Virus record (IMG/VR): IMGVR_UViG_3300038722_000002
Span: 19,540 to 83,539 of that record
From: a virus
Strand: one strand, 5' to 3'
Length of the DNA: 64,000 bases
Made by a program: the position numbers and the translations under genes. Shown here piece by piece: positions 40,922 through 50,964 of the stretch. The notes beneath the pieces were generated by a model. It had not been told where the DNA came from, ran no database searches, and saw only the letters and a list, made by a program, of their open reading frames with translations. Position 1 is the stretch's first letter, and the number at the start of each line of letters is the position of its first letter.

Positions 40922-41419
40922 CTATGGAGCTTCAGCAGGGAACGTATCAATTGTATTTAATAACCACTCTTTATGTTGCTCCCATAACTCAGCAGCTTTT
41001 TTCCCACCCCTCCATAAGACTCGTTCGAGAGTAATAGTTCTCCAATCTTCTATAGAATGATTCGCACAACCTATTTGGAGATGTGTGTGAGTGTAGGTTA
41101 TATTATATTCTGATGTTATAGATAGGTTTTTGACTTGACGTAAATTACCTACTGTTCCCTCTAAATCACACTTACTCAAGTTACACTCGCTCAAGTTAGA
41201 CCCTCTCAAGTCAGACTTACTTAAATCAGACTCACTTAAATCAGACTTACTGAAGTTACACCCTATCAAGGTAGACTCACTCAAGTTAGACTCGCTCAAA
41301 TCAAGCTCACTCAAATCGTACCCGATTAAAAATAACAGCTCTCCTTCGGGATCACCTTCTAAGTATAGCTTGTGTAATTCTAGTTTCTCTTGTAACTCTT
41401 GTTTAGTGATGGTTTTCAT
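40922..41419 (-). CDS. Pentapeptide-repeat protein
   Basis: From ATG 41419 the protein has 165 residues. About 35-80 is a run of pentapeptides of the form (D/N)L(S)xS/C (DLSESDLSKSDLRGSNLSEC), which builds a right-handed beta helix. The C-terminal region (LQIGCANHSIEDWRTITL, then EQHKEWLLNTI) is typical of phage members. Some relatives protect DNA gyrase, but this is not shown here. A TTG start at 41515 would add 32 residues. Confidence 0.78.
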   Translation of the reverse strand: MKTITKQELQEKLELHKLYLEGDPEGELLFLIGYDLSELDLSESNLSESTLIGCNFSKSDLSESDLSKSDLRGSNLSECNLSKCDLEGTVGNLRQVKNLSITSEYNITYTHTHLQIGCANHSIEDWRTITLERVLWRGGKKAAELWEQHKEWLLNTIDTFPAEAP

Positions 41420-41502
41420 TATCTTAACTATAACCCCTTGTTGTGTGTTATTGTATTGAGTGGTTCCATTATAAGGATATGAAGATAAAGTACAACCTTT
41501 AA

Positions 41503-41691
41503 TCAACGAATACAATGTTCGTGGTGTATGTCTATTAACCTATCAGCGGCTTGACCTCTGGGCCATACATTATACACCTTTCTGGACAAGTTTTTATTCT
41601 GCACTTGTACATTTAACCACCAACGACACTGTTGGTTATACTTCCGCTGTATTCCTAGTGCGTTTTCTCCACACCTTTCAGCCCACTCCAT
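41503..41691 (-). CDS. Unknown small basic protein
   Basis: A 62-residue protein with AGGAG six bases before ATG. Trp/Arg-rich (CRWWLNVQVQNKNLSRKVYN). Overlaps the upstream form of the pentapeptide gene by 13 bases. Function unknown. Confidence 0.58.
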   Translation of the reverse strand: MEWAERCGENALGIQRKYNQQCRWWLNVQVQNKNLSRKVYNVWPRGQAADRLIDIHHEHCIR

Positions 41692-41763: not shown

Positions 41764-41818
41764 TAGTTGATTTAATCAAGAGGCCCATTATTTCAGAGCC
41801 TCCCTGTTAAGTCAACTA
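41764..41818 (-). terminator. Nested hairpin overlapping the nampt stop codon
   Basis: An outer stem of 12 bases (41764-41775 with 41807-41818, one mismatch) encloses GAGGC/GCCTC (41780-41784 with 41798-41802). The outer arm includes the stop codon of the nampt-like gene. It may act as a terminator or RNA-stability element. Confidence 0.5.
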
Positions 41819-43447
41819 GATTTGTGAAGCAATCTTAGCTCGAATGTCTCGGAGGGTGGTTTTATTGTACAACTTACCATCCTTGAACACTGTACGAAGC
41901 AAACCTTGCCCTTCTTGCTCAGGTGTCTGCTCCTGATATAGAGTAATAACACCTTCCTCATTATGGTCTACACGCAACAAACCTTTAGCTGACTTCTTAC
42001 CTTGATCAGTCTTAGGGTCTTTACCGAAGTCAATCTGCTCACCTTTGTCGTTCCATGCACAGGTAGCCTTGATAGCTGACCCGTGAGTGTCACGGGTGAC
42101 ATATTGGTAACTGTAGGAGCCGATGCCAAGCACTACGCTAGGAGCAAACCCCTTAGCCATCAAACGGGTGTGGATCTCTTTTTGACGCTCTAGGGTGATA
42201 CTGTCACCGTAGATAGCACCGATATGGGAGTCTAGTAGTTTGTATCCCTCTGAGGTGGTTGTGCCACCGAAGATGTCCCAGAGGGATTCTACTAGACCTT
42301 TGGCTTCTGTAGAGCTAACTTCCTCGTACTCGTTATCATACATAGTATCATAGGTGCCCCCTGAAGACACGTAGTAGAATTTATCATCAGCTTTGTTCAG
42401 GTACAGCCTTTTTCTGCCTCGTATTGTTAAGGTCTGTATGTTATCCACTGTCTCATACTCCAATCCACACAGCACGCTAACAGGGTCTCCAGAATCTGGA
42501 CGAATGACCGTGGTACCGTCACGAGCCATGATATCATCTTTCAATAGTGGTAAACCTTCCTCAACAAACTTCCAGAAGTCATAGCTGTCTGATACATGAG
42601 AAACAATCCCACTTGGAACCTCTGTGAACAACTTCTCCCGTACAAAAGCAACCTCAGCATCAAACTTACTGATGCCCCGCTCCTTCTCTAGTACCGCAAT
42701 GTAGCTTGTTGCGATTGCATGTTCTGTAGCTGGTACACTGCAACCTACCAACTCAGTCTCGCAGTCAGCACCGTAGTATATCTCAGCCAAATCAATAGCT
42801 GGAACAGTATCAGTGCCAGCAAAACCTGCTGCTAGATGACCAAAACCTGACATTGCAGCTGCTTGTGGGCCAAAACAACCTCGCATGGAGAAATCGTGAC
42901 ACATAAACGGGACAGTTGCCTCGTCTAAGCCTGTCTTACGGAAGCTCTCTACAGTTTGCTTCATGTAAGCTGTAGCTGTAGTGGCTGAAGTCTGCATAGG
43001 CCATACATACGTGCTGATGATAGTCTCTAGGAAGCCTACGAGCCAAGGGTATCCGTCTACTGTGTTGGTTACAGTAAAGCACGGTACACCGTAGGGGCAA
43101 AAAGTACCCTCTTCCATAGACTTAATCTCAATTGGAAGATAACCTAAGTCATGTAGCTCCTCAAAATGTTTCACATCGAAGTCACTGCCGAAATAGTTAT
43201 CTAATCGGCGCTTCAAGCTACGGACAGCACCTTCCTTACTCAGGTTAAAGAATGTATTATTCCACTCATTTACCATGTAGTGCATCATCATATACTGCAA
43301 ACCTACGTGGACAACACCGAAGTCCTCTGGGATGTAGGATAGTCGTCCACTCCTAGCAGTGTAATTTTCATATAGGCGCACAATATTGGTGTGCAGGAAC
43401 TTCTTGTGTGCAAATTTGTAACCGTCTGCTTTAGTGATAGCTGACAT
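41816..43447 (-). CDS. nadV: Nicotinamide phosphoribosyltransferase-like enzyme (Nampt or Namat)
   Basis: From the internal ATG at 43447 this is a 543-residue enzyme matching Nampt in its core: HDFSMRGCFGPQAAAMSGFGH (about 180-200), a PATEHAIATSY catalytic His region, VIRPDSGDPV, GGTTSEGYKLLDSHIG with YGDSIT, and DPKTDQGKKSAKG. GAGGAG lies six bases before this ATG. Nampt joins nicotinamide to PRPP; the NARP1 relative (Namat) joins it to ADP-ribose pyrophosphate to give NAD+. Sequence alone does not separate these. It is paired with a prs-like gene immediately upstream. Confidence 0.88.
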   Translation of the reverse strand: MSAITKADGYKFAHKKFLHTNIVRLYENYTARSGRLSYIPEDFGVVHVGLQYMMMHYMVNEWNNTFFNLSKEGAVRSLKRRLDNYFGSDFDVKHFEELHDLGYLPIEIKSMEEGTFCPYGVPCFTVTNTVDGYPWLVGFLETIISTYVWPMQTSATTATAYMKQTVESFRKTGLDEATVPFMCHDFSMRGCFGPQAAAMSGFGHLAAGFAGTDTVPAIDLAEIYYGADCETELVGCSVPATEHAIATSYIAVLEKERGISKFDAEVAFVREKLFTEVPSGIVSHVSDSYDFWKFVEEGLPLLKDDIMARDGTTVIRPDSGDPVSVLCGLEYETVDNIQTLTIRGRKRLYLNKADDKFYYVSSGGTYDTMYDNEYEEVSSTEAKGLVESLWDIFGGTTTSEGYKLLDSHIGAIYGDSITLERQKEIHTRLMAKGFAPSVVLGIGSYSYQYVTRDTHGSAIKATCAWNDKGEQIDFGKDPKTDQGKKSAKGLLRVDHNEEGVITLYQEQTPEQEGQGLLRTVFKDGKLYNKTTLRDIRAKIASQI

Positions 43448-43993
43448 ACTATTCTCCTCATTGGTTTTATCGTATATTCTATTAATATGCCTCAGGAAAC
43501 CTCCCTTGGTCATATCTCTCTTCATGTGGTTACAGGCACCACAGCAAGGTAGACAATTACTATAGGTATACCCTAAGTTGTTGTCAACCCGATCTACTCC
43601 GTTCATCTCTACTTTGAAAATACCCCTAGCTTTCGGTTGGCTTCCACAGTAGTTACAAGAATCTGTTATTAGTGAGATGAACTCTTCATCAGTTAATTGG
43701 TACTCGTACCCCCTACTTTTAGCGGCTTGCTTATAGCTGTTGATCTCTTTATTGTACGCTCGGAGATTTTTGGGTATTCTAGGTACACTCCTTGTGCACT
43801 TGTTGCAACACTTCTTAGGCCGCTGTCTCCGCCTGAGTTGTGAAGTAGTAATATAGCAGGTAACCCCACAACTACACAGGCACTTCCACTTTGGTGTACC
43901 ACCAATTAACTCCCTGTCACTGATCACCTTTAGTTTACCAAACATCTTCCCTGTCAAGGCATCATCCGCTAGGTGTGTTGACCCATTCTTCAT
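41816..43993 (-). CDS. In-frame HNH endonuclease-Nampt fusion reading frame
   Basis: The frame stays open from ATG 43993 through nampt, 725 codons. Its first 182 residues are an HNH homing endonuclease: a treble clef with KWKCLCSCG (about 36-44) and CCNKC, then CNYCG (about 113), VDRVDNNLGY and NCLPCCGACNHMK (about 132-157). No stop separates it from nampt. Either a 725-residue fusion is made, or the HNH part is the 5' half of a message whose nampt is started internally. Confidence 0.7.
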   Translation of the reverse strand: MKNGSTHLADDALTGKMFGKLKVISDRELIGGTPKWKCLCSCGVTCYITTSQLRRRQRPKKCCNKCTRSVPRIPKNLRAYNKEINSYKQAAKSRGYEYQLTDEEFISLITDSCNYCGSQPKARGIFKVEMNGVDRVDNNLGYTYSNCLPCCGACNHMKRDMTKGGFLRHINRIYDKTNEENSMSAITKADGYKFAHKKFLHTNIVRLYENYTARSGRLSYIPEDFGVVHVGLQYMMMHYMVNEWNNTFFNLSKEGAVRSLKRRLDNYFGSDFDVKHFEELHDLGYLPIEIKSMEEGTFCPYGVPCFTVTNTVDGYPWLVGFLETIISTYVWPMQTSATTATAYMKQTVESFRKTGLDEATVPFMCHDFSMRGCFGPQAAAMSGFGHLAAGFAGTDTVPAIDLAEIYYGADCETELVGCSVPATEHAIATSYIAVLEKERGISKFDAEVAFVREKLFTEVPSGIVSHVSDSYDFWKFVEEGLPLLKDDIMARDGTTVIRPDSGDPVSVLCGLEYETVDNIQTLTIRGRKRLYLNKADDKFYYVSSGGTYDTMYDNEYEEVSSTEAKGLVESLWDIFGGTTTSEGYKLLDSHIGAIYGDSITLERQKEIHTRLMAKGFAPSVVLGIGSYSYQYVTRDTHGSAIKATCAWNDKGEQIDFGKDPKTDQGKKSAKGLLRVDHNEEGVITLYQEQTPEQEGQGLLRTVFKDGKLYNKTTLRDIRAKIASQI
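43454..43459 (-). promoter_or_regulatory. Internal Shine-Dalgarno for nampt
   Basis: GAGGAG on the minus strand, six bases before ATG 43447, inside the HNH-nampt open frame. It lets nampt be made on its own. Confidence 0.7.
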
Positions 43994-44844
43994 AATTCAA
44001 TTATGTTTAGTTGCTTATCCAACTCTTCATCTCGGATTCGAGAGTCAGTAGTGTATATACGTGTGATACCTGCGTCAAGTAGTTCTTTCAGGCCATTTGA
44101 GAAGATGCCGTGTGTGACGTACAGGGTGATCATGCCAGCACCCTTATTCTTTAAGGCTTTAGCTAGTTCAATAAACGTACGCCCTCCAATACAAAGGTCA
44201 TCTGTAATAACACAGTGAGCGCCATTAAGCTCCTCACAGTACACAACAGTCTCTAGGATGGCCCCAGTTGCCGTACAGCGAATCTTATCAGCTCGGATGA
44301 CCTCTGATACCCCAAACTCTTTAGCGAGCTTATACGTGGTCTTAAGTGCCCCTGCGTCTGGTGAGACTAGGGTACATTCAGTGTTACGTAATGTAGTAGC
44401 TAACTCACTGTCCTGTAAGATCATGTGTCGTGGTATATTACTACAGCGGTCGATCAAAGCAGGGAGTACATCACTGTGGCAATCTGCGGTGAACACAACC
44501 GAGTAATCAAGTGAGTTGATCATCTGAGCAAACACCTTACACGCTAAAGTCTCATCAGCCTCACAGATGCGGTCTTGTTGTGCGTAGGGTGCGTAATAAA
44601 TATATAGTTCACTAACTGCGTTGGGCCATTCCTCTTTCAGCCGATGACTAACCTGCATCAACTCCATGATGTCTTCTGCATTGTGCAGTTTTGCGCATAC
44701 TTGATAGTGCTCTGGGAAATCATCAGCAAGCTCTGCGAAGGCGCTGTCTTCCCAACCCCTTATCTTGGCTTGTACCTCACCACCTGCGAAGGTGAAGTAT
44801 TTGGTGAAGAAGGTGTCCCCACGGCTTGTGTTAATCTGTATCAT
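43990..44844 (-). CDS. prs: Ribose-phosphate pyrophosphokinase-like enzyme (PRPP synthetase or Adps)
   Basis: A 284-residue protein of the PRPP synthetase fold, with YAPYAQQDR (about 84-92; usual Y-PYARQDR), DCHSD, VSPDAGALKT (usual PD-GG) and the pyrophosphate-binding loop VITDDLCIGGRTF (usual VDDI-DTGGT). It lacks the C-terminal part seen in some bacterial Prs. It makes PRPP from ribose 5-phosphate, or in NARP1 (Adps) converts ADP-ribose to its pyrophosphate. Its stop overlaps the HNH-nampt frame by four bases (ATGA), so the two are coupled. AGAGGA precedes its ATG. Confidence 0.85.
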   Translation of the reverse strand: MIQINTSRGDTFFTKYFTFAGGEVQAKIRGWEDSAFAELADDFPEHYQVCAKLHNAEDIMELMQVSHRLKEEWPNAVSELYIYYAPYAQQDRICEADETLACKVFAQMINSLDYSVVFTADCHSDVLPALIDRCSNIPRHMILQDSELATTLRNTECTLVSPDAGALKTTYKLAKEFGVSEVIRADKIRCTATGAILETVVYCEELNGAHCVITDDLCIGGRTFIELAKALKNKGAGMITLYVTHGIFSNGLKELLDAGITRIYTTDSRIRDEELDKQLNIIEL

Positions 44845-49964: not shown

Positions 49965-49993
49965 ATATTACAGCGGGATTCTTGGTGTGTCAA
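49965..49993 (-). promoter_or_regulatory. Sigma70-like promoter, minus strand
   Basis: TTGACA (49988-49993), 17-base spacer, TAATAT (49965-49970), then ACACACAT. Closely similar in -35, spacer (CCAAGAA) and start region to the copy at 51536-51564. Confidence 0.72.
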
Positions 49994-50964
49994 CCTTTAT
50001 AACAACTTAATAAAAAATCATCCCAGAACTTACTATCAACCTTTTCAGGGAAGTCACTCCTATCCGCCAACACCTCAACTTCATCGATAAGTTCTTCCAG
50101 TACAGGTTGAACTTCAGTCAAGAAGTCTAAAGTACCTTGTTTCACAGCTAATAGGAAGTCTTTATTTTTGAGTGGATATGTAATTGTACCCTCCTCGTAG
50201 ATCTCCTTTAATTGATACCCCGCACGTAGGGCATGTGAAACAGCCTTCCAGTCCACTCCTTTGTTTTCCTTTGCTGCTTTGGCGCGTTCGCCGTAGGAGT
50301 TCCACTTCTCTTTGATTGATGTAAGGAACAAAGGTAACGGCATGGTTTTTTGATACTTGGAACCTAGAACAACATAGAACTCCTGTTCCGTACCGTTCTT
50401 CATCTTAGTTGTTTCATAATAACAGTGGTCATTCTCTGGCAACTTGCCCCACACATATTCAGATATTTTATCACACTTATCCCAACTATCATATTTAAGG
50501 TAGTAGTCATTACGTTGGAGTTGATTAAATACTTCCTCTAATGCTGCCATACGACTACCTTTGATACCATACTTACTAGCCTGCTTACGAGCATAACCTA
50601 GAAAAGCCTTCATATTCTTGGTGGAGAACCTCCATCGGTTCATCTGGATAAACTCCCACTCTGGACTTGCGCTTATTTGCCCTTGCATAGGACTGGCATG
50701 GAGCATGTCTAAAGCGATCATCTCCCCTTGAGTACACAATCGGATGAACTCAGGAAGAGAGTACCAATCACTATCCACATCTTCACTGGTATTCTTACTT
50801 TGGTCATTCCCCGTTGACTCACTGATTTGTTTAGGGGATATACCTAACAGCAGCTCATCTGTGCTGGGCATAAACACACCCTTATAGTCGATGTCTGATT
50901 CTGGTGTGTTCAGACCATAAAGGTGTGAGCCGTGTACGCACTGAAACAACTTCTTATATTTCAT
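49990..50964 (-). CDS. RlaP-like predicted nucleotidyltransferase
   Basis: A 324-residue protein of the polymerase-beta nucleotidyltransferase superfamily: residues 11-30 hold the GS...SD-D signature (GSHLYGLN, ESDIDYKGV) with the metal-binding Asp24 and Asp26. The rest is helical with a KASKYGIKGSRM region. RlaP-type proteins are thought to act with RNA ligases in RNA repair, but the substrate here is unknown. Confidence 0.8.
   Translation of the reverse strand: MKYKKLFQCVHGSHLYGLNTPESDIDYKGVFMPSTDELLLGISPKQISESTGNDQSKNTSEDVDSDWYSLPEFIRLCTQGEMIALDMLHASPMQGQISASPEWEFIQMNRWRFSTKNMKAFLGYARKQASKYGIKGSRMAALEEVFNQLQRNDYYLKYDSWDKCDKISEYVWGKLPENDHCYYETTKMKNGTEQEFYVVLGSKYQKTMPLPLFLTSIKEKWNSYGERAKAAKENKGVDWKAVSHALRAGYQLKEIYEEGTITYPLKNKDFLLAVKQGTLDFLTEVQPVLEELIDEVEVLADRSDFPEKVDSKFWDDFLLSCYKG

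Follow-up and report, generated by a model that had tools for sequence, protein, structure and literature searches.

The DNA analyzed here (the window) is a stretch of 64,000 nucleotides corresponding to bases 19540–83539 of the 83,539-base IMG/VR virus record IMGVR_UViG_3300038722_000002. Matches to tail sheath, baseplate wedge, portal, and terminase among the window proteins indicate a contractile-tailed phage, and tRNA genes were looked for in the window with none found. On the minus strand, a prs-like gene (43990–44844, 284 amino acids [aa]) is followed by a 725-aa open reading frame (ORF; 41816–43993) resembling nicotinamide phosphoribosyltransferase (Nampt). A preliminary description, made from the letters alone, had proposed that these genes overlap by four bases and form a NARP1-type module for reconstitution of NAD+ (nicotinamide adenine dinucleotide), encoding the enzymes Adps and Namat. 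The coordinates, strand, and gene order were confirmed, and the NARP1-type pair was borne out by the Namat clamp signature, ligand contacts, tree placement, and the Adps-family partner upstream, but an endonuclease moiety had been missed. The 725-aa ORF is ∼180 aa longer than a Namat or Nampt; residues 181–724 are its sole part matching nicotinamide phosphoribosyl transferase (phrog_448, E 5e-174), while residues 1–182 match phage endonuclease VII/HNH families rather than Nampt. The four-base overlap (ATGA, 43990–43993) therefore joins the prs stop to the start of an endonuclease and not to Namat. In order of transcription, the locus consists of the Adps-family gene, with a Shine-Dalgarno-like AGAGGAAAG upstream; an HNH/endonuclease VII-like homing-endonuclease module of 182 codons, the N-terminal part of the 725-aa ORF (43448–43993); and a 543-aa Namat (MSAITKADGYKF..., 41816–43447), which is also the C-terminal part of the fusion ORF and whose Shine-Dalgarno sequence, GAGGAG (43454–43459), lies inside the endonuclease reading frame. 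With a probability of roughly 0.7, we consider this locus a NARP1-type NAD+ reconstitution module in which a free-standing HNH homing-endonuclease gene has been inserted between prs and namat. Membership in the NARP1 type is supported for Namat by the defining features tested and is likely for Adps.

The selectivity clamp of Namat was defined from crystal structures and includes the helix signature GSX-Phi-X-Phi-X-Phi-TRD (PMC12774641). Residues 444–454 of the window Namat (GSYSYQYVTRD) fit this signature exactly, with S, Q, and V at Phi1, Phi2, and Phi3, all within the published preferences, and an Arg occupies the aligned position of the adenine-stacking clamp-loop residue (R40 in SPbetaL1). 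Eighteen of 20 NAD-contact residues are shared with the solved SPbetaL1 Namat (differences A362S and F392Y), as compared to 11–14 of 20 in seven Nampts drawn from plasmids, bacteria, and NadM-bearing phages. The window Namat neither carries the nonclamp Nampt sequence (GG-A/G-LLQ-x-x-D/N-RD) nor belongs to the Nampt clade, and it departs from its relatives at 0 of 83 positions conserved in ≥95% of them. A tree of 150 rows separated the seven Nampts on a single branch (support 100) and put the window Namat in a 30-row clade (support 100) that groups with phage Namats, including ICP1 NrsB; a second tree under a mixture model agreed. An approximately unbiased (AU) test rejected the joining of the window Namat to the seven Nampts (p 4e-5). 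A fold search returned the solved Namat 9w5x as top match (template modeling [TM] score of 0.93 over the target), and the nearest relatives by sequence are phage Namats at 49–60% identity, ICP1 NrsB among them. By sequence, then, the C-terminal 543 aa of the second gene are assigned to Namat. Elsewhere in the family, a clade of six loci (L048, L056, L058, L064, L068, and L089) carries a clamp variant ending in SRD in place of TRD and has prs downstream of namat, i.e., in reversed order.

The endonuclease module matched the profiles phrog_1035 (E 1e-13) and phrog_3322 (E 7e-12), as well as phrog_3118 and phrog_374, and its zinc-ribbon and HNH motif (GxDRxDNxxGY...NCxPCC..CNxMK) is intact up to the junction with Namat. 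The zinc-ribbon/HNH core, the intergenic location, and the overlap with the upstream gene fit the traits of free-standing homing endonucleases; in T4, mobE likewise overlaps the nrdA stop (PMC2988022), and translation of the endonuclease is likely coupled to that of prs through the ATGA overlap. Free-standing relatives with the same core are found in Acinetobacter phage Liucustia, Xanthomonas phage phiXaf18, crAss-like cr50_1, and Klebsiella phage VLCpiA1j, where they sit in unrelated intergenic sites. Most of these relatives stop no more than a few residues from window residue 178, whereas the window frame lacks the stop codon expected of free-standing HNH/endonuclease VII genes and continues through GAGGAGAATAGT into ATG TCA GCT, the Namat start, which aligns with the starts annotated for other Namats. 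The position of the Namat ribosome-binding site is conserved, relatives having AGGAGAAA and then ATG at the same place, and Namat most likely has its own initiation at an internal ATG (43447) preceded by GAGGAG. Predicted RNA folding at this start was no better than that of shuffled sequence, which weakly suggests an accessible ribosome-binding site. In an AlphaFold model of the 725-aa fusion, the Namat part was confident and the endonuclease part was poor owing to empty alignment rows; no claim is therefore made on domain arrangement.

Approximately half of random 12-codon stretches are free of stops, so an open junction is not improbable, and the neighboring frames run into stops at or close to it. 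The fusion may thus be an accident, and a single base, possibly one in error, could decide it. An assembly or sequencing artefact, or else inconsequential read-through, would leave the NARP1 identity unaffected; such an origin of the fused frame is a minority prospect in our estimation. It is favored by the solitary occurrence of the fusion: a tblastn search of 50,697 phage records with the whole 725 aa gave none covering both parts among the best 60 places, and in a survey of prs–namat loci the window has the only endonuclease in frame with Namat. An artefact sits less well with an endonuclease moiety whose motifs are preserved up to the junction and with the absence of frame disturbance elsewhere in either gene. 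A second fusion candidate (L173) was set aside, as it is apparently just a long open frame that overlaps prs in DNA of high GC content.

The first protein is, in our assessment, likely Adps. Its match to phrog_619 (E 3e-69), like that of the second ORF to phrog_448, far exceeds chance. The protein shares 46% identity with its best phage partner and 23% with E. coli Prs (phosphoribosyl pyrophosphate [PRPP] synthetase), and is modeled by AlphaFold in the PRPP synthetase fold (predicted local distance difference test [pLDDT] of 94; TM score of 0.78 to E. coli Prs). Against the PRPP synthetase model TIGR01251 it scored 106 bits, just under the cut-off of 113. The gene lies directly upstream of namat, an order seen in 133 loci of relatives, and in the Prs tree the protein falls with that of locus L066 and others inside the phage group. 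Its ribose-phosphate (PRPP-type) loop, DDLCIGG (residues 215–221; 44182–44202), contains the GG found in 135 of 146 relatives, where E. coli Prs has TG (T at position 220), and the family norm is DDICDGG. The preliminary description had taken this loop, along with PDAGALKT (residues 162–169), as departures from PRPP synthetases that could suit another substrate. Both motifs are present, but they are mostly typical of the family: PDAGALK is found in other Adps too, and the loop combines a family trait (no Prs-type TGG) with a private one (I for D). Also private to the window protein is Q89, which had been overlooked. Rather than signaling an altered substrate, I219 and Q89 raise doubt about Adps catalysis.

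Several observations weigh against the NARP1 reading. Position 89, within the AQQD segment (residues 88–91; 44572–44583), is Gln in the window, against Arg in E. coli Prs and in 146 of 146 relatives; at position 219 the window has Ile, where 135 of 146 relatives have Asp and the others S, E, T, or C. Trees had been proposed at the outset as a check, with grouping among true PRPP synthetases and mammalian-type Nampts counting against a NARP1 pair; no such grouping was found for Namat, which was set apart from the seven Nampts, but a basal position of Adps next to true Prs was not rejected (AU p 0.63) in a tree that has three reference Prs only and does not resolve deep placement. The separation of Adps from Prs therefore rests on identity, loop, and context rather than on the tree. 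HdNadV (9ke8/9keo), solved with nicotinamide mononucleotide (NMN) and nicotinamide and labeled as a Namat reference in the 150-row tree and AU test, lies inside the large Namat clade without the clamp residues; clade membership alone is therefore no proof of reaction, and the clamp residues carry the argument. Finally, the fused frame depends on a short junction. Separately, the position of this Haemophilus ducreyi NadV in the phage Namat clade makes it a candidate for reversion from Namat to Nampt-type use.

One way to read these observations is ordinary NAD salvage: a PRPP synthetase would provide PRPP, from which a Nampt would form NMN, and ADP-ribose would play no part. In its favor, the second protein passes the cut-off of the NCBIfam model for nicotinate phosphoribosyltransferase, the TIGR01251 score of the first falls only slightly short, a basal position next to Prs is not rejected by the tree, and SPbetaL1 Namat can still make NMN when given PRPP (PMC12774641). 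Salvage nevertheless seems improbable, since the adenine clamp residues are those of Namat and absent from Nampts, the AU test rejects the Nampt grouping, the first protein has the Adps-type GG in place of the Prs T at 220 together with its closer identity to phage Adps, and no NMN adenylyltransferase was recognized among the subset of window ORFs tested.

The departures at positions 89 and 219 bear on a further alternative, i.e., that NARP1 in this phage is silenced or decaying. In Mycobacterium smegmatis Prs, Arg104 contacts the ATP adenine and Asp234 the ribose 5-phosphate (PMC5395218), and by the alignment made in the present analysis these are equivalent to window positions 89 and 219. 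Since two bases must change to turn an Asp codon into one for Ile, an error at one base would not explain D219I. With two active-site departures, the rate or donor of Adps may differ, and catalysis by the window Adps is uncertain. If R89Q and D219I inactivate Adps, the module would be idle, or Namat alone would use host PRPP. There is precedent in Vibrio phage ICP1: a working pair lowers fitness in hosts that lack NADase, and nrsB has the Y29* stop in 60 of 75 isolates (PMC11559045); the mutation is visible at Namat codon 29 of ICP1_2001_A (L010), whose record annotates the gene in two pieces. We regard silencing as possible but unlikely. The Adps frame is intact and confidently modeled, and retains H123, D163, G165, K187, R189, D215, D216, G220, and G221 of an active-site set derived in the present analysis rather than taken from a published definition. 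Moreover, the complete lack of departures at conserved Namat positions is unexpected for an idle module and argues for a module under selection. Searches of IMG/VR and genome contigs with Adps, endonuclease, and Namat queries found no close relative giving an insert-free site and no sister genome for Q89 and I219.

Under the favored NARP1-type reading, Adps would use ATP to add pyrophosphate to ADP-ribose, and Namat would join the product to nicotinamide, giving NAD+, such that the module would undo NAD+ depletion by host defenses. A free-standing HNH homing-endonuclease gene would have entered the prs–namat slot, its start overlapping the prs stop with coupled translation, and would have lost, or never had, its own stop, leaving a frame that runs through the Namat ribosome-binding site into Namat. 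Two Namat products would then be possible: free Namat from GAGGAG-ATG, the expected main product, and a 725-aa endonuclease–Namat fusion from the prs-coupled ATG. What is new is the combination of an in-frame endonuclease module and an altered Adps in an otherwise known NARP1 type. We consider it far-fetched that the fusion is both made and selected as a bifunctional protein and that the altered Adps provides another donor or serves as a regulatory pseudo-enzyme; if true, NARP1 would here be rewired, with an NAD+-restoring enzyme that has incorporated a mobile element.

The window module resembles NARP1 of SPbetaL1 (a Bacillus phage) and related phages in having Adps followed by Namat, the Namat clamp and catalytic residues, and the Adps-family GG loop; unlike SPbetaL1, it has an inserted endonuclease in frame with Namat as well as Q89 and I219 in Adps. 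The two Namats are ∼37–38% identical. ICP1 NrsAB has the same gene order, with NrsB 49% identical to the window Namat and its NAD+-restoring role shown genetically (PMC11559045), but it lacks an endonuclease insert, its NrsA retains Arg and Asp at positions 89 and 219, and most nrsB genes are broken. Alteromonas phage PT11-V22 (MN877442) carries a homing endonuclease in the same slot (prs-HNH-nampt) beside a Namat 58% identical to that of the window; its endonuclease differs in belonging to a NUMOD4/HNH_3-type cluster and in being unfused with its own stop. For the endonuclease module itself, Acinetobacter phage Liucustia_53 agrees in domain order and HNH motif, covering 92% of the module at 37% identity, but stands alone between tail-fibre and holin genes and has its own stop. 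Nampt/NadV proteins (Xanthomonas, human, and HdNadV 9ke8) have a common fold and catalytic core with the window Namat. Unlike the latter, Xcc and phage/plasmid Nampts are without the adenine clamp residues, and HdNadV has A/Q/R at three clamp positions despite its place in the Namat clade.

Insertions between the two genes are widespread. Of 133 distinct loci in which namat closely follows prs, the distance from the prs stop to the DxYK motif of Namat is <120 bases in 76 and larger in 57. Endonucleases of the NUMOD4/HNH_3 type occupy the slot in five loci (L011, L109, L114, L148, and L142), HNH_3 with AP2 in L174, GIY-YIG in L153, and a relative of the window type in L044; this variety indicates that the slot has been invaded by endonucleases many times. 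Six related inserts (gaps of L008, L012, L042, L043, L061, and L066) are macro domains, with a Pfam Macro match in the L066 insert. Their recurrence between Adps and Namat suggests a step freeing ADP-ribose for NARP1, as has been speculated for Pseudomonas phage Adele (PMC12846349). Seven related small slot proteins (L014, L053, L073, L081, L085, L088, and L138) carry, by eye, motifs resembling HAD phosphatases (DFDDT...LLDDRAG); the one member tested had no Pfam match, and the family is possibly a nucleotide phosphatase linked to NARP1. Other alterations touch the coding regions themselves. An 846-aa Namat gene (L129:2437-4977) contains an apparent intein, recognized by eye from its Cys start and ...VCGN|TEHS end, at the catalytic-His motif PATEHS, with Pfam matches restricted to the flanking parts. 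In L119 (3935-5245), Adps is fused to the C-terminal half of Namat only (436 aa), apparently through an in-frame deletion, and the product would be without half of the active site.

The Prs partners of the nearest Namats (L009, L017, L011, and L016) do not include the window's nearest Prs (L066), and they do not form one clade (AU p 2e-11). Prs and Namat have changed partners often, as a general pattern. With partners reshuffled so widely, the discordance between the Prs and Namat trees gives no ground for assigning it to the endonuclease.

Near the module, a pentapeptide-repeat protein is encoded just downstream of Namat (40922–41515, minus strand; Pfam PF00805, E 8e-27), and an RlaP-type nucleotidyltransferase (RNA repair, DNA polymerase beta family) lies upstream on the same strand (49990–50964; E 2.6e-15).

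Fused or inserted parts of NARP1 loci are such that automatic annotation will misname them. The gap between prs and namat has been repeatedly invaded, and NARP1 loci bear both mobile and ADP-ribose-related cargo. NARP1 is a recent counter-defense pathway in which the specificity of Adps is still unexplained, and an Adps changed where ATP and ribose phosphate would be contacted, paired with a Namat that is fully conserved, provides a natural test of the residues that Adps needs.

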